This document shows positions 11,125 through 29,267 of a stretch of 64,000 nucleotides of DNA, piece by piece. The position numbers were made by a program, and so were the translations under genes. The stretch lies in the NCBI GenBank assembly GCA_003643835.1, contig QMKX01000001.1, positions 62,001-126,000 of the forward strand, written 5' to 3'. Numbering within the stretch: position 1 is the first letter of the stretch; each line of letters opens with the position of its first letter. A model generated the notes under the pieces. It was given only the letters and a program-made list of their open reading frames with translations, was not told the origin of the DNA and searched no databases. Source of the DNA: Campylobacterota bacterium. Its GTDB lineage: Bacteria > Campylobacterota > Campylobacteria > Campylobacterales > Arcobacteraceae.

Positions 11125-11140
11125 TTTAGGGCACCTCTAA
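11125..11140. repeat. solo MITE-end motif, left side of NosL cluster
   Basis: TTTAGGGCACCTCTAA matches 15 of 16 bases of the terminal inverted repeat of the element at 15371-15728, in the left-end orientation. A right-end copy lies at 16889-16901. Between the two is exactly the NosL gene cluster. Confidence 0.55.
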
Positions 11141-11170: not shown

Positions 11171-11185
11171 GTTTTAAAATGTTTT
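11171..11185. repeat. 15-bp direct repeat, left copy
   Basis: GTTTTAAAATGTTTT here is repeated perfectly and in the same orientation at 16871-16885, 5,700 bp away, at the other edge of the NosL cluster. The words are AT-rich, so chance is possible, but both copies lie next to MITE-end motifs. Confidence 0.4.
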
Positions 11186-11678
11186 ATATTCTACCATTTA
11201 TAAGTCGTATTAGTGATGGTTTTATCTCTTTGAACTTTAATACTCTTTTGCCACTATAAGAACTGGCAAATTTTTTTGCCTGCTCTTTATTTTCAAACGG
11301 AACAAGATCATCGCCAGTTGGCGATATAGCACGACTACCATATACATAAAATGCCTTTTTAGCATCTATAGGTTTTAAGTTGCTATAGTTAGTCACTAAA
11401 ATATCTTTAAAATCAGCCTCTTTTTTCACTCCTACTTCAAACCATTTTCCGGGCTGAAAATAGAACTCAAACATAGATTTAGGACTGCTAAAAAACAGTT
11501 TTTTGCCGTTGATTAGCTCTATTTTGCCCACCCATTTAGGAGCTTTATAGACAGGTATTTTTCGCACCAAACAGATAGTTTTTTTATTGAAATCCATCAC
11601 ATATGGTTTATGTGGAATAGGCAAAGCACCTATATCTATAAAAACAAACAAACTAAAAACCAATAAATATTTTTTCAT
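11184..11678 (-). CDS. NosL-family protein
   Basis: A 164-residue exported protein, with signal peptide KKYLLVFSLFVFIDIGA, of the NosL copper-chaperone family. KWVGKIEL, the FFSSPKSMFEFYF strand, AKKAFYVYGS and PTGDDLVPFENKEQAKKFA match the second half of the double protein at 14225. The N-terminal CxxCGM copper site seen in that protein is not evident; only one cysteine (KTICLVRK) is in the matching place. The start overlaps the permease stop by 4 bp, so it is the last gene of the cluster's operon. Copper binding may therefore be weakened. Confidence 0.8.
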   Translation of the reverse strand: MKKYLLVFSLFVFIDIGALPIPHKPYVMDFNKKTICLVRKIPVYKAPKWVGKIELINGKKLFFSSPKSMFEFYFQPGKWFEVGVKKEADFKDILVTNYSNLKPIDAKKAFYVYGSRAISPTGDDLVPFENKEQAKKFASSYSGKRVLKFKEIKPSLIRLINGRI

Positions 11679-12502
11679 ACTAAATCCTTTTTCTTAAATA
11701 CAACAAAACCAAAAACTGCAAACAAAACACCCAACAACATAGGATATACGATAGACAAAAACACAAACAATGCTTGTGATATATTGTCAAGTATGTAAAA
11801 TGCCACAGGACCCATCACGGTTAAAGATGGGTCAAAAAGCGATATAGCTGCTACTCTAAATATCTCCATAGGATTTAGTAGTGCTATTGTTATTATCAAC
11901 TCTTCGTTAAATCTATTTGATAGCATCAAAGATATCAAAGCTATATCAATGAAACTTAACAAAAGTACCCATATGAAAAATGCCATTCCCAATGCCACTT
12001 CGCTTGATTTTACAAACGAAGATATGAAAAACGCAATTCCTAAAAATGCACTACTCATAGAAAACAATAAACCCGAATATAACACAAACACATCCCAAGG
12101 CACAGAAACACCTTTGATGACACCAAAGATTATAGCGATAAACATAGCCATAAATACAGGCAAAAACACAGTTATAAATCTGCCTATTATTTTACCCCAA
12201 TAGTATTGTCTAAGTGATATGGGAAAACTAAGCATATATTCCAAAATATTATTATCTCTGTCGCTTGATATTGACCGAACGGTTGTTATAAGTATAAATA
12301 TAGGAAGTATTACAATTGTTATTTGTATATACATAAGCAGCAACCTGCTCAATCCACTAAATCCCATAACTTGAGATTGAGTGACCCCAGAAATAAAAAA
12401 TATAGCAATAAGCCCACCAAATACCACCGAATATACTATAAACCATTTTGCTCTTATTGATTCTTTGAGATCAAGATATGCAATGAGACCTAAATTTTTC
12501 AT
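11675..12502 (-). CDS. NosY-like ABC-2 type permease
   Basis: A 275-residue inner-membrane protein with about six spans and the ABC-2 permease pattern, including the cytoplasmic segment DNNILEYMLSFPISLRQYYWGKI typical of NosY. In nos systems NosY works with the ATPase NosF and the periplasmic NosD to deliver copper or sulfur to N2O reductase. No nosF, nosD or nosZ is visible here, so the ATPase partner must be elsewhere. It overlaps the NosL lipoprotein and the downstream NosL gene by 4 bp each. Confidence 0.82.
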   Translation of the reverse strand: MKNLGLIAYLDLKESIRAKWFIVYSVVFGGLIAIFFISGVTQSQVMGFSGLSRLLLMYIQITIVILPIFILITTVRSISSDRDNNILEYMLSFPISLRQYYWGKIIGRFITVFLPVFMAMFIAIIFGVIKGVSVPWDVFVLYSGLLFSMSSAFLGIAFFISSFVKSSEVALGMAFFIWVLLLSFIDIALISLMLSNRFNEELIITIALLNPMEIFRVAAISLFDPSLTVMGPVAFYILDNISQALFVFLSIVYPMLLGVLFAVFGFVVFKKKDLV

Positions 12503-12975
12503 GGATTAGCCTTTTTTATTTGTGTATTTTGCATAGTCTCACCTCTTAAAATTCTCAAATATACCTCTTCGTAGTTTATCATCTCTTTTCCTTTTAAATC
12601 ATCTTCATTTTTATAAGCAGCAAATCCAAAATCCATAGGAGTTCTGCTATTTGTATCATAGTGTGCTTTTCTAGCATCTATAAATTCACCACTTTTTCTA
12701 TCGGTGATAAATATGTTTGCTTTATGTTTCCATGATATTTTTTCCTCTTCAAACCATAAAACAGTGCAACCGATATCATCGAACATATAACTTTTGCCGT
12801 TTTGTGGATTCACAGCTTGAACTGTGTGCTTTCTATCGCTTACTACCATCTTGCATAACTCGCACATATCTCTATCCCAGTGGACTTCGTGCAAACCTTT
12901 TTCTATCTTTTTTTCACAGCCTAAAAATAATATAAATACACATAGTATTATAGCCGCTGTTGTTCTTTTCATCAT
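12499..12975 (-). CDS. NosL-like lipoprotein
   Basis: The preferred ATG at 12975 has AGAGGA 5 nt upstream; an in-frame ATG at 13020 would extend the protein by 15 residues. A lipoprotein signal peptide ends in LFLGC, followed by HWDRDMCELCKMVVSDRKH, the MCxxCxM copper-site signature of NosL, then FDDIGC and ARKAHYD. This is the canonical NosL copy of the cluster, anchored to a membrane by lipid. It overlaps the permease gene. Confidence 0.85.
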   Translation of the reverse strand: MMKRTTAAIILCVFILFLGCEKKIEKGLHEVHWDRDMCELCKMVVSDRKHTVQAVNPQNGKSYMFDDIGCTVLWFEEEKISWKHKANIFITDRKSGEFIDARKAHYDTNSRTPMDFGFAAYKNEDDLKGKEMINYEEVYLRILRGETMQNTQIKKANP

Positions 12976-13010
12976 TTTATCCTCTGTATCTTTCATAACT
13001 TTATCATATA

Positions 13011-13718
13011 TCAATGACACTGCAACAATGTTCTATCGCTACTTACAACATAATCATAACCGTTGTATATAGTATAGCACCCATACAATATCACAGATAT
13101 GGCCGAAAGTTTTATCATAGTATCTCTTATTTTTGTTTGTTTGAATAACCCTACAAAAAACCCCAACGAAAAAAGTGCCGGTATTGTGCTTAGTCCAAAT
13201 ACAGCCATGACAAGTGCTCCATATAGCGGGTCAGCCGTGCTAGCAGCTGCGATAGCGAAAAAATACACAAGCCCACAAGGCAACAAGCCATTTAATAAAC
13301 CAAGCATAAAAAAACTAAAAAAAGTTTGGTTTTGAAGCAGTGCTTTAAAACTCTCTTTATACCAAGCCGAATTTAAAAAAGAGTGCTCTATCAAAACGAG
13401 AAATTTAATCTTACCCAACAATGAAAACCCAGTTAAAATCATAACCACACCAACGATAAGCCACAATATGCCATTGGCTGTGTGTGAAAAAGTAGCAACT
13501 CCTCCCAAATACCCAAACAATGCGCCTAAAATTATATAGGTGGTAATTCTACCAAAAGAATATAAAATATGCGCAAAACTTTGGTGAGTATTTGTCCAGC
13601 TTGATTGAATTTTGGTGCTTGAATATGCCACGACTATACCGCCGCACATACCAACGCAGTGACCAAATGAACCCAAGAAAGCTATCGTTGCTATTGAGAT
13701 TATATCAATTGTTTGCAC
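13011..13718 (-). CDS. SafE/UreH-type membrane transporter-like protein
   Basis: A 235-residue protein with about six membrane spans, related to the COG2836 sulfite exporter/urease accessory-H type family and to CcdA/DsbD transmembrane domains. The N-terminal GSFGHCVGMCGGIVVAY and the later NGLLPCGLVYFF are the paired helix motifs of that family and carry three cysteines suitable for metal or thiol handling. It sits between NosL-type genes. Homologues often accompany cytochrome oxidase copper assembly, so copper handling is the likely role, by inference. Confidence 0.82.
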   Translation of the reverse strand: MQTIDIISIATIAFLGSFGHCVGMCGGIVVAYSSTKIQSSWTNTHQSFAHILYSFGRITTYIILGALFGYLGGVATFSHTANGILWLIVGVVMILTGFSLLGKIKFLVLIEHSFLNSAWYKESFKALLQNQTFFSFFMLGLLNGLLPCGLVYFFAIAAASTADPLYGALVMAVFGLSTIPALFSLGFFVGLFKQTKIRDTMIKLSAISVILYGCYTIYNGYDYVVSSDRTLLQCH

Positions 13719-13721
13719 AAG

Positions 13722-14222
13722 TTATTTTGCCTTTTTTAATAATATTTGTCTATATTTGGCATTCGCCATAGTTTCACCACGAAGCATATACAAAGACATA
13801 GTCTCAAAATCAATCAAGTTTTGCTTTTTGTTTTCATAAGCACCAAACCCATAAAGCATAGGGGTGGTATCGGTCCTGCTATACCAAGCAGTTCTGCCGC
13901 TTATCCATCTTTTTGTATCTTTTGACATCACATATATATATGCCGTGTCTTTAAATGCTTTATCGCTAATCCAATGCACCATGCCCCCGTGGTCATGAAA
14001 GAACCATGTTTTTCCATCGTTTGATACTACTTGTGAAGCATATGCCAAACTATCTATGACCATACCACAATCACTATCTTGAAACTTACCAAGAACTATA
14101 GATATAGGTTTTTTGCTATAATTATCTGTCTTGACCACAGTCATATTTTGAGAACTTGATATAGAGATAAATATAAACACTATTATTAATATCGCTACAA
14201 TAGTTATCAAAATTTTAGACAC
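13722..14222 (-). CDS. NosL-like anchored protein
   Basis: A 166-residue protein with an N-terminal membrane anchor (residues 4-24) and a NosL-like fold: KFQDSDCGMVIDSLAYASQ, TWFFHDHGGMVHW, SGRTAWYSRTDTTPMLYGFGAYEN and LYMLRGETMANAKY. It keeps a single DCGM cysteine-methionine in place of CxxCxM. The C-terminal LRGETM motif is shared with the lipoprotein at 12499. Only 2 bp separate it from the double NosL gene. Confidence 0.75.
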   Translation of the reverse strand: MSKILITIVAILIIVFIFISISSSQNMTVVKTDNYSKKPISIVLGKFQDSDCGMVIDSLAYASQVVSNDGKTWFFHDHGGMVHWISDKAFKDTAYIYVMSKDTKRWISGRTAWYSRTDTTPMLYGFGAYENKKQNLIDFETMSLYMLRGETMANAKYRQILLKKAK

Positions 14223-14224
14223 GA

Positions 14225-15295
14225 CTATTTATCCAAAGAGAGTACAAGCTCCTTCGTGATATCTTCAAATCGCACGATTTTAGTGCCGTTGCGATTTTTT
14301 TTGAACTCTTGCGCTTGAGCCATATTTGAAAATGGTATAAGCTCATGTCCCATAGGACCATAAACAGTTGAGCCAACTACATAAAATGCTTTTTTTGCTT
14401 TCATTCCAGAAGTCGTAAAATAATCAGTCACTTTTATATTTGTAAATTTTTGATTTTGACTAAATATAAACTTCATCATATCTTTTACACCATCAAAATA
14501 GTGCATATGTTTGCCGTGAGTTACGGTAGCTACCCACTTAGGGTATTTTGCTACAAACATACCACATACAGGGCATTTTGCATCTTTTGGCACCAGAATA
14601 GCTTTTTTATTTGCCATAGTTATGCCAAGTTTTTCTACATCCCATAGATATACACAGATAGCTTGAAGTTGTTTGTCTTTGATTTTTTTGCCACAAAGTT
14701 TGTTGTCTTTGATATGTGCTTTTAGTGATGATATTTTGTCAAAACTTTTGACATCTATTTTATCTTTTTGACATTTTTTGTTATACATTTTCTTGCCCAT
14801 TTTATAGACTTTTTTGCTACGTTTTTTGCCTATCATTTTCATATCTTTTTTGAAGTCACCTCTGGCTATTTCATAAGCTTCTTTAAAAGTTTTAATCTCA
14901 CCGCCATTTTTGGCTTGAAACTTTTTTGCTTTATCTTTTGAAGCAAAAGCATATTTGCTGTTCATGGTCATGGTGCCTTTTTTCTTGCTACCTACTACAT
15001 AGAAAGCTTTTGTGGCATCTATAAACTTCAAACTATTTGTATCTACGACTTTTGCGTCTGCTGGCAAGCTATCTTTGTTGTTCTCAACTAAACAATGCAT
15101 AGAGCAGTATTGGTGATCTTTGTGCACATGGTTTGTCTTGTAAAACTTACCCAAATGCATACCACAGTTTGGACAATAATTTTTTGCTTTGCCTGTTTGT
15201 GTCATGGTCGCTTTTTTTGGCGACACTGTTTGAAACATTGCTGCTTCACTTAAGCCTAATATAAGCACTATTGATAATATATATCTATTTAACAT
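14225..15295 (-). CDS. tandem double-NosL protein
   Basis: A 356-residue exported protein holding two NosL domains. The first, about residues 38-135, has CPNCGMHLG, YCSMHC and ATKAFYVVGS. The second, about 235-350, has CPVCGMFVAKYPKWVA, MHYFDGVKDMMKF and AKKAFYVVGS. Both keep CxxCGM, the expected Cu(I) site. The lysine-rich linker (about 150-225) contains isolated cysteines and resembles a small cytochrome c that has lost CxxCH. The first gene after the MITE in transcription order. Copper delivery is inferred; no target enzyme is encoded nearby. Confidence 0.8.
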   Translation of the reverse strand: MLNRYILSIVLILGLSEAAMFQTVSPKKATMTQTGKAKNYCPNCGMHLGKFYKTNHVHKDHQYCSMHCLVENNKDSLPADAKVVDTNSLKFIDATKAFYVVGSKKKGTMTMNSKYAFASKDKAKKFQAKNGGEIKTFKEAYEIARGDFKKDMKMIGKKRSKKVYKMGKKMYNKKCQKDKIDVKSFDKISSLKAHIKDNKLCGKKIKDKQLQAICVYLWDVEKLGITMANKKAILVPKDAKCPVCGMFVAKYPKWVATVTHGKHMHYFDGVKDMMKFIFSQNQKFTNIKVTDYFTTSGMKAKKAFYVVGSTVYGPMGHELIPFSNMAQAQEFKKNRNGTKIVRFEDITKELVLSLDK

Positions 15296-15568
15296 TTCTT
15301 TCCTTTGTTTTAGAGTGTAAATTATAAATCTCTAAGTCTTTGAATATATCTAATTATTCTTAAAATTATCTTAAGGGCACCTCTAAAAACCTCTATGCTC
15401 ATAGCTTTAGGTTGCTTTTCCTTGTTCTTGAGTTTCTGCTTGAAGGACTAACGGGTTAATTCAAAAGCAAAAACTCAAGAACAAGGAAAAGCAAGCAAAG
15501 CCCGCAGGGAAGGGAAGTTTTCGCGAAAAAAGTCCATATAAATTCTTGAATTAACCAGTTAGTCCTTC

Positions 15569-15615
15569 AAAAGTAGCCGTGGCGATTTTCGCATAGCGAA
15601 AAACTTTCTGTGAAA
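15569..15615 (+). repeat. 45-bp palindromic element, MITE copy 1
   Basis: This copy reads AAAAGTAGCCGTGGCGATTT and continues through the hairpin TTTTCGC-ATA-GCGAAAA to CTTTCTGTGAAA. It is almost identical to the copy at 26354-26400. Confidence 0.7.
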
Positions 15616-15637
15616 TTTTTATGAACTTTTATTCATC

Positions 15638-15682
15638 AAAAGTAGCCGTGGCGATTTTGCTTTGCAAAAACTTTCTGCGAAA
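15638..15682 (+). repeat. 45-bp palindromic element, MITE copy 2
   Basis: This copy has the same AAAAGTAGCCGTGGCGATTT start, a shorter hairpin (TTTTGC-TTT-GCAAAA) and the end CTTTCTGCGAAA. The variant loop is like the copy in brnT at 20146-20191. Confidence 0.68.
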
Positions 15683-15758
15683 AACTGCTCCTTCTATGAG
15701 CTATAGAGGTTTTTAGAGGTGCCCTTAAATTAATTTTTTAATTTTTGATTAGCTGTTT

Positions 15759-16715
15759 CTATAAAAAAACTCCATTTCTGATGTAAAACTCAACGACAAA
15801 ATAACTACACAACAGCACAAAAATAGTGTTGAAAATAGCAGCAAGTTTATAACCAAAGACAAGCTCTTTTTTTGTCAATAGTTTTATGATATAAGGACTA
15901 ATACTAAAAAATACACCCAAAAACAGACTCATCCACAAAACATATCCTATATAAAAATACTCTTTTTGTAGCATACAAAACGGACATTTGTGAGTTGGAA
16001 GCTCATATATATAAGTGCCAAAAAAATATGTGACACTAAAATAAGACAAAACCAAAAAAAGCAAGCCTCCTAAAAAACTAACCAAACTATTTTTAACTAT
16101 GTTTGACACAAGCAAAACAACATAACAGATATAAAACAGAAGCAAAATATTTTCTATATCAAAAATAGATGATACACTATGTTCATCGACAAACACCGCA
16201 CTACAACAAAGCACTGGTTGTTGTATTGATATATTTGTAAAATACAATATCTCAACTATAAACTCCAGACAAATAAACACAAACAACAACACAAACAAAT
16301 AGTATTTTTTGATAAGATATGGATAATCCAATGCTTGAATATCTAACTTGTTCAATACTATCCATATACCAAAACCAAACAAGGTAAAAAGCTTGAAAAT
16401 CAAAAGAATAGTTCCGTATTCATTTGCATTGACTATGCCAGCTGCACACATGGCACCGGGAACTATTACCGACAAACCATCAAGAGAGTTTATAAAAAAT
16501 AAAAACAAAACTATTTTGACTACTACTACAAAAAATATAATTGTAGCTACAAGATAGTTCTTTTTTTCCAAACTATATTGGGTGGTCGTGCTTTTGCCAA
16601 AATCCCAATATCGTATGATATCTATAGAGATGTATAAACTATAAGTTGCAAACAACAACAATATCGTCTGTATAAAAAAAAGTGCTATTATGTTATTTGA
16701 TAAAAATATTGACAT
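15759..16715 (-). CDS. polytopic membrane protein with cysteine motifs
   Basis: A 318-residue protein with eight or nine predicted membrane spans. Cysteines cluster at membrane edges: GAMCAAG (about residue 90), LCCSAV (about 170) and HKCPFCMLQKEYFYIGY (about 245). The last resembles the CxxC region of DsbB- or VKOR-type quinone-linked thiol oxidases, but overall similarity is not clear enough to name it. It lies upstream of the NosL genes on the same strand, separated by the MITE, and could maintain thiols or metals for that cluster. The function is unknown. Confidence 0.65.
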   Translation of the reverse strand: MSIFLSNNIIALFFIQTILLLFATYSLYISIDIIRYWDFGKSTTTQYSLEKKNYLVATIIFFVVVVKIVLFLFFINSLDGLSVIVPGAMCAAGIVNANEYGTILLIFKLFTLFGFGIWIVLNKLDIQALDYPYLIKKYYLFVLLFVFICLEFIVEILYFTNISIQQPVLCCSAVFVDEHSVSSIFDIENILLLFYICYVVLLVSNIVKNSLVSFLGGLLFLVLSYFSVTYFFGTYIYELPTHKCPFCMLQKEYFYIGYVLWMSLFLGVFFSISPYIIKLLTKKELVFGYKLAAIFNTIFVLLCSYFVVEFYIRNGVFL

Positions 16716-16888: not shown

Positions 16889-16901
16889 GAGGTGCCCTTA
16901 A
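16889..16901. repeat. solo MITE-end motif, right side of NosL cluster
   Basis: GAGGTGCCCTTAA matches the right terminal repeat of the MITE exactly. It immediately precedes the -10 box of kdsB and is inverted relative to the motif at 11125. Confidence 0.6.
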
Positions 16902-18736: not shown

Positions 18737-18792
18737 CTTTTGACTATGGATATATAGCATGGGAACTAGGACAGACAAAACATGAGCCCACG

Positions 18793-18834
18793 GGGCGAAC
18801 ACGAGTTAGGGAGCGATGGCGGATCTATTCGCCC
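18793..18834. repeat. GC-rich inverted repeat at accessory-region border
   Basis: GGGCGAA at 18793-18799 pairs with TTCGCCC at 18828-18834. The surrounding 80 bp are clearly richer in G+C than neighbouring DNA, and the encoded extension has no homology with Fic proteins. It looks like a repeat fragment joined to the Fic gene rather than coding sequence. Confidence 0.35.
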
Positions 18835-18860
18835 AAGCGATAGCACGAGTGAGACAACTA

Positions 18861-19513
18861 TGATCAAACCAAATAGAAAACTATATATAGCTATGGCAAA
18901 AAAAGACACGGTGGATTATGTATATAATACATCGGCACTTGAGGGCAATGCTATGATCTACTCAGAAGTTCAAACACTATTGGAGGGTATAACCGTAGGC
19001 GGACATAAACTAAGCGATGAAAATATGATTTTGAATCAAAATAGAAGTATGAAGCTACTTTTTGAGTTGTTGGACAAATATAGCTTTGACGATAACAAAA
19101 ACACAATTTGTATGCTACACAAAGAAGTAGCCAAAGAGGAAGCTCTAACTTGGGGTAAGTTTAGGCAGTCAAATGTCCGTATAGGCGGCACAGAGTTTTT
19201 GCCTCCATCGTATGACAAACTCGATGATATATAGACAACAAATAGACAAACTCTACGAAACATAAAGCACCCCGTAGCAAGAGCATTTCACAACTTTTTG
19301 CTAAATTGTAAAACTTAATACTTTTTTGATGGCAACAAACGAACAGCCAGACTGATGATGAACGGCAGACTATTAGATAGTGGTTATCCTATATTGAATA
19401 TAAAAGCTATCGACAAACTGGAGTTTAACCGTATGATGATAGACTATTATGACACAGATGATATACACAGGGCTACTAAGTGGCTGATGGATTATTATAA
19501 AAATGGACGATAA
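18861..19513 (+). pseudogene. Fic-domain AMPylase-like gene, frameshifted
   Basis: The intact N-terminal part runs to 19234 and has the inhibitory-helix motif TSALEGN and KLSDENMILNQNRSMKLLFELL, as in Fic family proteins. After a stop, the rest is found in shifting frames: YRQQIDKLYET, KHPVARAFHNFLL, then the core FFDGNKRTARLMMNG and a tail ending WLMDYYKNGR at 19513. At least two or three small indels are needed to read through, so the gene is inactive here. Fic proteins modify target proteins with AMP and are often toxins. An upstream ATG at 18782 reads through the GC-rich repeat and is unlikely. Confidence 0.65.
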
Positions 19514-21815: not shown

Positions 21816-23561
21816 ATGCCATACATAGACTGGATGGGGAAAGATGATGTTAAAGACCATCATAAAAATATCGAATATAAAACTATAGAGTGTAAAGAAA
21901 GCATAGGCGATATAGATAGCCAAAATATGATTATCAAAGGGGATAATCTTTTGGCTTTGAAGTCATTGTTGCCTTATTATGCTAGTAGTGTAAAGATGAT
22001 ATACATAGACCCACCATATAATACTGGTAATACTTCATGGGTATATAACGACAATATGGATAGTCCTCTTATCAAAAAATGGCTAAACGATACAGTAAAT
22101 GCAGATGATTTGAGCAGAAGTGACAAATGGCTTTGTATGATGTGGCCTCGACTTAAACTTTTGAGAGAATTACTAAAAGATGATGGAGTTATTTTTATAA
22201 GTATTGATGATGCAGAGGTTACTCATCTTAGAATGATTTGTGATGAAATATTTGGTAGAAATAATTTTATTACTTCAGTTTGTTGGCAAGGATTAGATAC
22301 GATAAAAAATGATGCAAAATATTTTTCAAATAATCATGAATATGTCTTAGTTTATGCAAAAAATAAAGTAAATGCAAAAATAAAAGGACAAAAAAGAACA
22401 AACGAGCATAATAAAGTTTATAAAAATCATGATAATGATCCAAAAGGAAACTATTTGCTTACTCCACTGAATGCTAAAAGTGGAACAGAAAATGGCATCT
22501 ATACATACACATTTAAAAACAATACAACATGGACATCTCCAAAAGGCACTTATCCAAGGTTTTCAAAATCAAAACTAAAAGAATTAGAATATAATAATAT
22601 GATTTATTTTGGTAAAAAAGAAAATACAATACCACAAAAAAAGACCTACCTGTGCGATATGGATGAATATATTAAACTAACAACTTTTTGGAGTTACAAA
22701 TTTGCTGGAAGTACCAGACAGTCAAATGGACAATTATCTGATATTTTGTCAAAGGGTATTTTTCAAAATCCAAAACCAAAAAAACTACTTGAAATCATAA
22801 TAAATTCTATAACATCAAAAAATGATATTATCTTAGATTCATTTGCAGGAAGTGGAACGACAGCACATGCAGTATTGGAACAAAATAAAGAAGATGGTGG
22901 AAGCCGTAAGTTTATTTTAATTGAGACTTTAGACTATGCGAAAGATATCACGGCTGAGAGAGTAAAAAGAGTTATAAAAGGTTATGATTTTATAGGAAAA
23001 GATAAAACAACTTTATATGAAAAAAAGCTTACGACCTCACAAGTTTTAAAGCCTGAAACTATGGATAAAATTTCTTATGAAGTAAATAAAACAGTTGAAT
23101 ATGAAAAGCAAAACTATACAAAGATAGAAAAGACTTTTAAAGAAAACACTATAAAAGTAACAGGTATCAAAGATATTAAAACTTTTAAAGATGGTATAGG
23201 TGGAGGGTTTAAATATTGTGAGCTCAGTCATAATATTTTTGATGAGTTCGGAGAACTAAACTCAAAGTTAACATTTGACCAAATTGCAAAACATATCTAT
23301 TTTGTAGAGTTTAAAAAACCTGTGAACAAAAAAACCATAAATGCACCATTTGTAGGAACATATAAAAATCAGCATATATATTTTTATGAAAAGAAGTTTT
23401 TAAATAAAGATTTAAAAGACCTCTTAATCAAACATAGAAAAACTAAAAAAGAGTATAAACAACTTATAATTTATACAGCCAAATCAACAGTATCAAACGA
23501 TACATTAAAAGAAAAAAATATAATCATAAGATATATCCCTTATGATATAAAGGATAATTAG
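21816..23561 (+). CDS. mod: type III restriction-modification system methyltransferase (Mod)
   Basis: A 581-residue beta-class adenine N6 methyltransferase that gives both sequence recognition and protection in type III systems. Catalytic motif IV reads DPPYNTGN at about residues 65-72, and the SAM motif DSFAGSGTTAHAVLEQN lies near residue 342, the order expected of the beta class. The region between them carries the target recognition domain. I see no long homopolymer or tandem repeat of the kind that makes other mod genes phase-variable. It is followed with a 1-bp overlap by res. Confidence 0.92.
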   Translation: MPYIDWMGKDDVKDHHKNIEYKTIECKESIGDIDSQNMIIKGDNLLALKSLLPYYASSVKMIYIDPPYNTGNTSWVYNDNMDSPLIKKWLNDTVNADDLSRSDKWLCMMWPRLKLLRELLKDDGVIFISIDDAEVTHLRMICDEIFGRNNFITSVCWQGLDTIKNDAKYFSNNHEYVLVYAKNKVNAKIKGQKRTNEHNKVYKNHDNDPKGNYLLTPLNAKSGTENGIYTYTFKNNTTWTSPKGTYPRFSKSKLKELEYNNMIYFGKKENTIPQKKTYLCDMDEYIKLTTFWSYKFAGSTRQSNGQLSDILSKGIFQNPKPKKLLEIIINSITSKNDIILDSFAGSGTTAHAVLEQNKEDGGSRKFILIETLDYAKDITAERVKRVIKGYDFIGKDKTTLYEKKLTTSQVLKPETMDKISYEVNKTVEYEKQNYTKIEKTFKENTIKVTGIKDIKTFKDGIGGGFKYCELSHNIFDEFGELNSKLTFDQIAKHIYFVEFKKPVNKKTINAPFVGTYKNQHIYFYEKKFLNKDLKDLLIKHRKTKKEYKQLIIYTAKSTVSNDTLKEKNIIIRYIPYDIKDN

Positions 23562-26170
23562 TGTTAAAAAAATACCAAAAAGAATCATTGGAAGTTTTAG
23601 ATAGCTTTTGTCAAAAAACACTTTCAACAACTCCAGTACAAGCATTTAAAGATGTTACATCAAATCAATATTTAGAAGTAGATGATTATACTAATCCTTA
23701 TGTATGTTTGAGAGTGCCTACTGGTGGTGGTAAAACTTTGATAGCTACAAAAAGTTTACGAATACTTGTCAACGAATATCTTAATATTGATTATCATCTT
23801 ATATTTTGGTTAGCTCCAAGTGACAAAATAGTAACTCAAACACTAGAAGCACTAAAAGATAAAAGACATTTTTATAGACAACAGTTAGATAAAGATTTTG
23901 ATAATATAAATATAATGAGTGTCCAAGAAAGCTATAAACAAAAGTTTGACCCTAATAATGAATTGGTTATCATCATAGGTACTATTCAAAGTTTTAGAAC
24001 TAACAATAAAGATGGTAGAAAATTTTATGATGAAAATGGAAACTATCAAGAGTTACTGAAATCTTATGATGTTAAATACTCTTTAGAAAATGTTATGAAA
24101 CTTTATAAACCTATCATCATACTTGATGAAGCACATAAATCTAGTACGGGACTTAGTTTAGAAAATATTCTTGCATTAAAACCATCTTTTATATTAGAGT
24201 TTACTGCTACACCAGTAACTAAGACAAGCAAAGCAAAAAGTATCTATGCTAGTAATATATTATTTAGTGTAACTGCTACTGAGCTAAAAAAAGAAAGTAT
24301 GATAAAACTTCCAATATTACTTAAAACTATTGATGATAAAAAAGCTATATTAAAAGATGGTATAGAAAAAAGAATGTATTTAGAAGAATTAGCTTTAAGG
24401 GAAGAGATTCATACTTCAAGATATATAAGACCTATCAATCTTATACGAGCCGATGAAAATAGAGGAGATGAAGCTTTAACCTATGATAAAATCAAAAATA
24501 TTTTAATAGAAGAGTTTAAGATAAAAGAAGATGAGATAGCTATACAAACAGACAATAAAAAAGAGATAGATGGTATAAACTTATTAAGTCCAGATTGTAA
24601 GATAAGATATATCATAACTGTAGAAGCTTTAAAAGAGGGTTGGGATTGTCCGTTTGCTTATGTACTTAGTGTGGTATCAAATATGAAATCATCAACTGCC
24701 ATAGAGCAACTTATTGGTAGAGTTTTAAGAATGCCATATATTGAAGAAAAAGATAAAAAAGAGTTGGGATATGCTTATGTATTTGTAGCATCAGATAGTT
24801 TTGAAAAAGTAGCAAATGATATAGGACAAACACTTATCAAAAGTGGTTTTGAACAGAGTGAAGCTAAACAAAGTATAAATAAATCAAATCATACAAATGA
24901 ATATGTAGATGGTATTGGTAGTTTATGGGGCGATATGCTTTATGAAGATAGACAAATACACCTTGACACTATAAATATAGATGATTTTACTACATCTAAA
25001 CTTGACCCTTACATAAGTGTAAATATTGAAACAAATAATATATCGATGATAAATATTCCAACAAAAGCAAAAAGACCTAAGTTTATAAAAGATTTAAAAG
25101 CAGTAACACCTGAAAATACACATAAAAAGATAGATGTGATTTTTGAAAAGATAAATCAACAAAATGATTCATTGGTCAAAGTTACAGATATAGAATTACC
25201 AAAACTTTTAATAGAACATGATGGGGATATTTCTATATTTGAAGACGGCACTATTTTAGATTATATTGATATATCAGATAAAGAACTTATAGAGAATGCC
25301 TCTTTAAATATAGATGAATTTAGTATAAATACAAATGAACATTTAGTAATAATTGATATTGAAAATGAAAAGATAAGAAATAAAGAGATAGATACGAATA
25401 ATCCATCATTATTTGATGAAGAAGAAAATGAAGAGATGACTAAGATAATCAATGAACACAATATTGAGACAAACAATCCTAACTTTATGGCTAAGCTATC
25501 AAATTCAATCTATAATATTATTGTAGGTGAATATAAAGAGATACATCAATTATTAGATTCAAAACAGATTAAAGAGTTTATATCTATTATAATTATCAAG
25601 TTAGAAAAAAGAGAAGATATTGATTTACATTTACTTGAGAGTAAAAAATATCAATTAAAACGAGCAATCTTAATAAAAATAAAAGATATGGTTCTTAACT
25701 CTAAAAAACAAAGTTTTAAAATGTTATTTGATAAAAACAGTTTTACAGTAAATAATGAAGAAACTTTTATATTTACATCAAATAACTATATGCCAAATCC
25801 TGATAATAGAAGTAAAAATTTTAAAAAACATAAATACGAAAATGTTCATAAATTTGATAGTATGGAAGAGTATGAAGTAGCACTTTATATTGATAAGATG
25901 CCAAATGTAAATACATGGATAAGAAATATAGACAGTGATCCTATAAATTCATTTTGGCTTCTGACTGAAACTGGTAAGTTTTATCCTGATTTTATAATCA
26001 ACTTTGACAATGGTAAAACTGTAGTTGCTGAGTATAAGGGTAAAGTGTATATTCCACAATACGAATTGACCAAAAAACCAATTGGCGATGTTTGGGGAAT
26101 GTTAAATGAAAATTGTGAGTTTATATCTTTGTATGACAATAACTTTAAAACCATATTAAATGATATTTAA
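23561..26170 (+). CDS. res: type III restriction endonuclease subunit (Res)
   Basis: An 869-residue SF2 helicase-nuclease that, in complex with Mod, cuts DNA with unmethylated sites. Walker A is VPTGGGKTL (about 52), motif II DEAHKSS (about 187), motif III EFTATP, and motif VI EQLIGRVLRMP. A C-terminal PD-(D/E)xK nuclease is visible as YPDFII followed by VAEYKG (about 807-828). GTG start at 23561. No frameshift is seen, so the system looks intact, unlike its neighbours. Confidence 0.92.
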   Translation: MLKKYQKESLEVLDSFCQKTLSTTPVQAFKDVTSNQYLEVDDYTNPYVCLRVPTGGGKTLIATKSLRILVNEYLNIDYHLIFWLAPSDKIVTQTLEALKDKRHFYRQQLDKDFDNINIMSVQESYKQKFDPNNELVIIIGTIQSFRTNNKDGRKFYDENGNYQELLKSYDVKYSLENVMKLYKPIIILDEAHKSSTGLSLENILALKPSFILEFTATPVTKTSKAKSIYASNILFSVTATELKKESMIKLPILLKTIDDKKAILKDGIEKRMYLEELALREEIHTSRYIRPINLIRADENRGDEALTYDKIKNILIEEFKIKEDEIAIQTDNKKEIDGINLLSPDCKIRYIITVEALKEGWDCPFAYVLSVVSNMKSSTAIEQLIGRVLRMPYIEEKDKKELGYAYVFVASDSFEKVANDIGQTLIKSGFEQSEAKQSINKSNHTNEYVDGIGSLWGDMLYEDRQIHLDTINIDDFTTSKLDPYISVNIETNNISMINIPTKAKRPKFIKDLKAVTPENTHKKIDVIFEKINQQNDSLVKVTDIELPKLLIEHDGDISIFEDGTILDYIDISDKELIENASLNIDEFSINTNEHLVIIDIENEKIRNKEIDTNNPSLFDEEENEEMTKIINEHNIETNNPNFMAKLSNSIYNIIVGEYKEIHQLLDSKQIKEFISIIIIKLEKREDIDLHLLESKKYQLKRAILIKIKDMVLNSKKQSFKMLFDKNSFTVNNEETFIFTSNNYMPNPDNRSKNFKKHKYENVHKFDSMEEYEVALYIDKMPNVNTWIRNIDSDPINSFWLLTETGKFYPDFIINFDNGKTVVAEYKGKVYIPQYELTKKPIGDVWGMLNENCEFISLYDNNFKTILNDI

Positions 26171-28601: not shown

Positions 28602-29267
28602 TTATTTATAAACCTCACCACTTTTGACTCTTTTGCTAAATTCAGTTTCACCACCATCATTTAAAACTTTTGCTTGTCCTACCCAGTCGTCCCTTTTTGC
28701 ACGACCTTTAAATATCTTGAGATATTTGTCTATCCATCTTAGATTGTTTTCATTCCAAGATGCGATTTGACTTAAGTGAAATACGCCGTGTTTGTTCAAA
28801 AGTTTTTCTATCTCTTCGCCTATGCCTGATATCTCTTTCAAATCACAAGGTTTTTCATCTTTTGGTTTATCCAAAAACAGAGGTTTGTGTTCGTCTGTAA
28901 CTGTGTTGTGGATATCTAATTCGTTTTTTATATCTACTGTCAGGCTAGCAAATGACTCTGGATTTTCCATAGCCATAGAAGCTAATATCTTTCTGTCTAA
29001 CTCTATTTCTAGAAGTTTAAGCCCAAACATAAACTGAGAGTATTTTAGCCCGTTTAATTTACAAGCTGCATTTATACGGATGATCCATAGTTTTCTAAAG
29101 TCACGTTTTTTTTGTCGTCTATCTCTATAGGCATATACAAGTGCGTGCTCTACTTGTTCTTTGGCTTTTCTAAAATGTTTTCTTCTACCGCTGTAGAATC
29201 CTTTGGCTTGTTTTAGTATCTTTTTGTGTCTTTTTCTTCTGACAGTTCCTGTTTTTACTCTTGGCAT
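28602..29267 (-). CDS. rplT: 50S ribosomal protein L20 fused to a C-terminal helix-hairpin-helix domain
   Basis: Residues 1-118 are a standard L20 ([37 protein letters not shown]), an early assembly protein of the large subunit. The next 100 residues are extra. After an acidic linker come [46 protein letters not shown] and [10 protein letters not shown]. That is a HhH-type domain best known as a C-terminal extension of alphaproteobacterial L21 and NuoE-like proteins. L20 is normally about 117 residues. The reading frame is continuous through both parts. The role of the tail is unknown; rRNA binding is a guess. Confidence 0.9.

Follow-up and report, generated by a model that had tools for sequence, protein, structure and literature searches.

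A NosL-rich gene run in an Arcobacteraceae genome is very probably the second half of a split clade II nos operon

In Wolinella succinogenes, the clade II nos cluster comprises nosZBDGC1C2HFYL. A single Cu(I) is bound by NosL, and the CuZ site of NosZ requires nosDFYL (PMC7558416; PMC6530538). The nos cluster of Sulfurospirillum cavolei carries a five-gene insert between nosL and nosY (hypothetical, ABC permease, ABC ATPase, hypothetical, hypothetical), which was drawn but left unexplained (PMC4794192).

Here, we followed up a window of 64,000 nt (C1:62001–126000) from an Arcobacteraceae genome, and additionally read the upstream stretch C1:42001–62000 for missing genes; positions without the C1 prefix refer to the window. 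A sequence-only reading of the window had interpreted the genes at 11184–16715 as a cluster of NosL paralogues lacking nosZ, nosD and nosF, which might serve another enzyme and constitute an undescribed system. Our analysis indicates that this run is very probably the second half of a split clade II (Sec-dependent, Wolinella-type) nos operon, an otherwise known system, and that its main client is almost certainly NosZ.

Inspection of the run recovered the gene content of the sequence-only reading, i.e. five NosL-like domains in four proteins, a NosY and a cysteine-rich membrane protein, all as open reading frames and all on the minus strand. In the direction of transcription, it begins with the gene for a 318-aa polytopic membrane protein with the motifs GAMC, VLCC and HKCPFC (CysMem; 15759–16715), followed by those for a secreted double-NosL protein (14225–15295; Pfam NosL twice, CPNCGM and CPVCGM), a NosL-like protein with a DCGM motif (13722–14222; GTG start as listed), a DsbD_2-family membrane protein (13011–13718), the NosL lipoprotein proper (12499–13020; CELCKM, PF05573 with 26.3 bits), the NosDFY permease NosY (11675–12502) and a further NosL-family protein downstream of nosY (11184–11678; PF05573 with 77 bits). 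Two of the previous assignments needed refinement. The protein at 13011–13718, described as SafE/UreH-like, is indeed a membrane protein of CcdA/SafE-like type and now falls into DsbD_2 (PF13386, 171 bits, 3e-50), and the NosL copy at 11184–11678, thought to be devoid of cysteines, lacks the CxxCGM motif but retains a single cysteine, C36. Pfam NosL matches above the cut-off comprised 11184–11678, 12499–13020 and both ends of 14225–15295, and these four are all Pfam NosL matches in the genome. The run is followed by cysK and mtaB (named by eye from the sequence and from PF00291 and radical-SAM matches). Elsewhere in the window, we noted by eye a short, possibly truncated Fic-like frame (18782–19234), genes for a methyltransferase and a helicase that together look like type III restriction-modification (21816–26170), and a ribosomal protein L20-like frame whose C-terminal extension resembles a helix-hairpin-helix domain (28602–29267).

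The genes reported as absent are present, intact, in the same genome and on the same contig, upstream of the window (nosZ, nosD and nosF at C1:51367–59552). Using a congener NosZ as the query, we obtained a match at C1:51397–54057 and thereby located a full-length nosZ at C1:51367–54060; its 897-aa product passes TIGR04246 (876 bits against a cut-off of 625) and falls below the TIGR04244 cut-off, as expected of a Sec-type NosZ. On the plus strand, C1:51367–61485 encodes nosZ, B, D, G, C1, C2, H and F, then a 65-aa protein and both parts of an FtsX-type ABC transporter (permease and ATPase), with nosB, nosG, nosC1, nosC2 and nosH being 69–86% identical to the congener set, and with neither nosY nor nosL in this block. 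The block ends 515 bp before the window, thus spanning 0.5–10.6 kb outside of it, and the clade II assembly genes are divided between the two locations (nosD and nosF outside, nosY and nosL inside the window). The apparent lack of an N2O reductase is therefore mostly a window-edge effect: a gene set complete for N2O reduction was hidden by an edge that fell ~0.5 kb short, and what had looked like a nos locus without nosZ can be corrected. As an intact nosZ-B-D-G-C1-C2-H-F set without nosY or nosL of its own lies on the same contig, the proposal that the NosL cluster serves an enzyme other than N2O reductase no longer holds; this is the kind of finding that the sequence-only reading itself had named as refuting it.

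Further support comes from a congener in which both halves form one operon. In L025, an Arcobacteraceae MAG (the same genome as G151 of the same genus, as judged by 100% NosZ identity), 18 genes lie contiguously on one strand in the order nosZBDGC1C2HF-doubleNosL-small-ABCp-ABCa-CysMem-NosL-like-DsbD_2-NosL-NosY-NosL-family, where ABCp and ABCa denote the ABC permease and ATPase. All 18 have counterparts in the present genome at 52–88% identity, including NosZ (88%), NosY (81%) and the last NosL-family protein (73%). Here, however, the nos genes do not form one contiguous cluster but two blocks on opposite strands. In two other congeners (G150 and G152) they are found in at least four places, again with every gene retained: nosZ to nosH followed by cysK and mtaB; nosF-doubleNosL-small-ABCp-ABCa; CysMem-NosL-NosY-NosL-family; and NosL-like-DsbD_2 between ccoG and ccoNOQP. 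A nos operon can thus be seen breaking up within a single genus while keeping all of its genes.

We propose that an ancestral order nosZBDGC1C2HF-[accessory genes]-nosL-nosY would have been broken just before CysMem, on the far side of the ABC ATPase gene, leaving the half from CysMem to the last NosL-family gene on the opposite strand with its near end ~12 kb downstream. This split probably arose by inversion or block transposition. The arrangement fits a single inversion of ~17 kb (C1 61.5–78.8 kb), which we infer as the mechanism; both routes are nonetheless compatible with the data because the congener contigs do not reach across: each of the three congeners has lptF-truA on one contig and kdsB on another. 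A search for inverted repeats long enough to drive an inversion at the two breakpoints returned only chance-level matches, and FNR-type sites (TTGA-N6-TCAA) upstream of both halves were in no excess over chance.

The NosL run is itself interrupted by a MITE-like repeat with terminal inverted repeats (TAAGGGCACCTCTAAAAACCTCTAT...), read directly from the sequence at about 15370–15728 (no strand assigned), between CysMem and the double-NosL gene. One other copy is nearly full-length (92%) and many more are partial, adding up to 79 matching pieces genome-wide. Half-sites of 12 bases from the repeat end occur four times in the window (0.21 expected) and flank the block in inverted orientation, one (TTAGGGCACCTC) at 11126–11137 on the plus strand, between cysK and the last NosL-family gene, and another at the opposite block edge upstream of CysMem (16889–16900, minus strand). 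Half-sites at the flanks and a full copy inside are suggestive, though only that, of a trace of rearrangement. The linkage of the two halves depends on an assembly of 40 contigs, several of which end in this repeat, as would be expected if the split had been introduced at the repeat during assembly and the real chromosome had one operon. We consider such an artefact unlikely: no full copy of the repeat lies where the operon is split (downstream of the ABC ATPase gene and upstream of CysMem), the block being flanked only by 12-base half-sites, and two congeners are likewise split.

Comparison with homologues and solved structures was consistent with the nos assignment. NosY matched its solved counterpart (7o0y, 1e-16). 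For the NosL proper, the orthologue in L025, encoded between DsbD_2 and NosY, aligns from residue 16 onward, and the true start is probably an internal ATG near 12975. Within the double-NosL protein, a helical linker with two conserved cysteines joins the two NosL domains, and its AF2 model matched solved NosL (7og7) and NosDFYL (7znq) by Foldseek (2e-7 to 4e-7). The DCGM protein gave no Pfam NosL match; its congener orthologue shares 36% identity with the NosL of this genome over 115 residues (tblastn, 2e-18), and its homologues adjoin CysMem or ccoN.

CysMem found no family match in Pfam, NCBIfam or the PDB, including in a search of the PDB with a CysMem profile. Alignment of 57 homologues revealed five cysteines, H242 and M89 to be invariant. 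The cysteine-bearing loops contain few or no lysines and arginines and alternate with lysine-rich loops, which places the cysteines, as far as charge distribution can tell, in the periplasm. An AF2 model of CysMem (five sequences) was too weak for a fold assignment (mean pLDDT of 57) and was dropped.

Maturation of this genome's NosZ is the simplest account of the run. NosY would pair with the NosD and NosF of the nosZ half, and NosL would deliver the Cu(I) from which the NosZ copper site is assembled, by analogy to what is established for NosL and NosDFY elsewhere. The earlier suggestion of a copper relay remains a sensible one for the NosL-family proteins. Judging from their domains, cysteine conservation and gene neighbors, the double NosL, the DCGM protein, DsbD_2, CysMem and the FtsX-type ABC transporter may likewise contribute to copper supply and would acquire periplasmic Cu(I), keep it reduced or pass it on.

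To what extent these accessory genes are dedicated to NosZ was assessed across 120 genomes of the order. The accessory genes adjoin nos in other genera and families, too. CysMem was found in 54 genomes, NosZ in 44 and MccA in nine (five weak matches with E-values of 1e-4 to 1e-3 counted as not MccA). CysMem coincided with NosZ in 30 genomes and with MccA in six, and was missing from 14 NosZ and three MccA genomes. A Fisher test of CysMem against the presence of NosZ or MccA gave 8e-6, a value that takes no account of relatedness and is indicative only. Against a role restricted to nos, 24 of the 54 CysMem-bearing genomes have no NosZ, 18 of them having neither NosZ nor MccA, and the DCGM NosL-like and DsbD_2 genes sit within the cbb3 operon of G150 (L161, 6639–10814) and G152 (L160, 1366–5542).

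These observations, together with the presence of one cbb3 oxidase in the present genome, are what favors the run being a stand-alone copper relay for a non-NosZ enzyme such as that oxidase, independent of nos. This is highly improbable, as nosY and nosL belong to the nos core and are missing from the nosZ half, a congener has the whole set in one stretch with nosZ, and the DCGM/DsbD_2 pair is away from ccoN in this genome. What survives of the idea of a relay to a haem-copper oxidase is that, with the module beside MccA or in genomes without NosZ and the pair in the cbb3 operon of two congeners, some genes may serve other cuproenzymes; the position of the pair in G150 and G152 hints that the cbb3 oxidase of this genome may share part of the copper supply. 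A division of labor is accordingly conceivable, in which NosL and NosY are dedicated to NosZ. General periplasmic Cu(I) would then come from the DCGM protein, DsbD_2 and the ABC/CysMem module and go to NosZ and cbb3 here and to MccA in other species. Such dual use is compatible with the run being half of a nos operon and adds clients to it. It would explain the same module lying beside NosZ, beside MccA or alone, and the association of CysMem with either enzyme, yet the genomes of the order are not independent and several NosZ and MccA genomes do without CysMem; we regard it as a real possibility that falls somewhat short of probable. Slightly more tentative is the notion that the double NosL, FtsX-type ABC transporter and CysMem (with NosL-like and DsbD_2) represent an undescribed copper-loading cassette of Campylobacterota that moved between N2O reductase, MccA and cbb3. 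The core of the run being known clade II nos, what is of broader interest is solely this uncharacterized accessory module (double NosL, ABC transporter, CysMem and NosL-like, with or without DsbD_2), which is common but unstudied and adjoins copper enzymes of three kinds.

Two of these settings correspond to described gene clusters other than nos. Among the sulfite reductase (mcc) clusters, L026, L030 and L032 contain mccABCD-ccsA1 followed by double NosL-small-ABC-ABC-CysMem-NosL-like, and MccA of L026 has seven CXXCH motifs and one CX15CH and matches PDB 4rkm with E=0. In a separate observation, an mcc-type cluster with mccC, mccD and ccsA1 next to the copper module (L064, genome G020) lacks any MccA match throughout its genome. 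The present genome differs from the mcc arrangement in that MccA, an octahaem cytochrome c, is absent, and MccA was accordingly rejected as a client here. Relative to the cbb3 maturation genes (ccoG, ccoI, ccoS), the DCGM/DsbD_2 pair lies between ccoG and ccoN in G150 and G152 but in the nos half-operon in this genome. The insert of S. cavolei matches small-ABCp-ABCa-CysMem-NosL-like and is probably the same module, a likeness of order and annotation rather than alignment, and the S. cavolei cluster is contiguous whereas the one described here is split. With W. succinogenes, this genome shares all ten nos gene types and a Sec-type NosZ with a C-terminal cytochrome c domain; it departs from that cluster in being broken in two and in carrying extra NosL-like proteins, DsbD_2, the FtsX-type ABC pair and CysMem.
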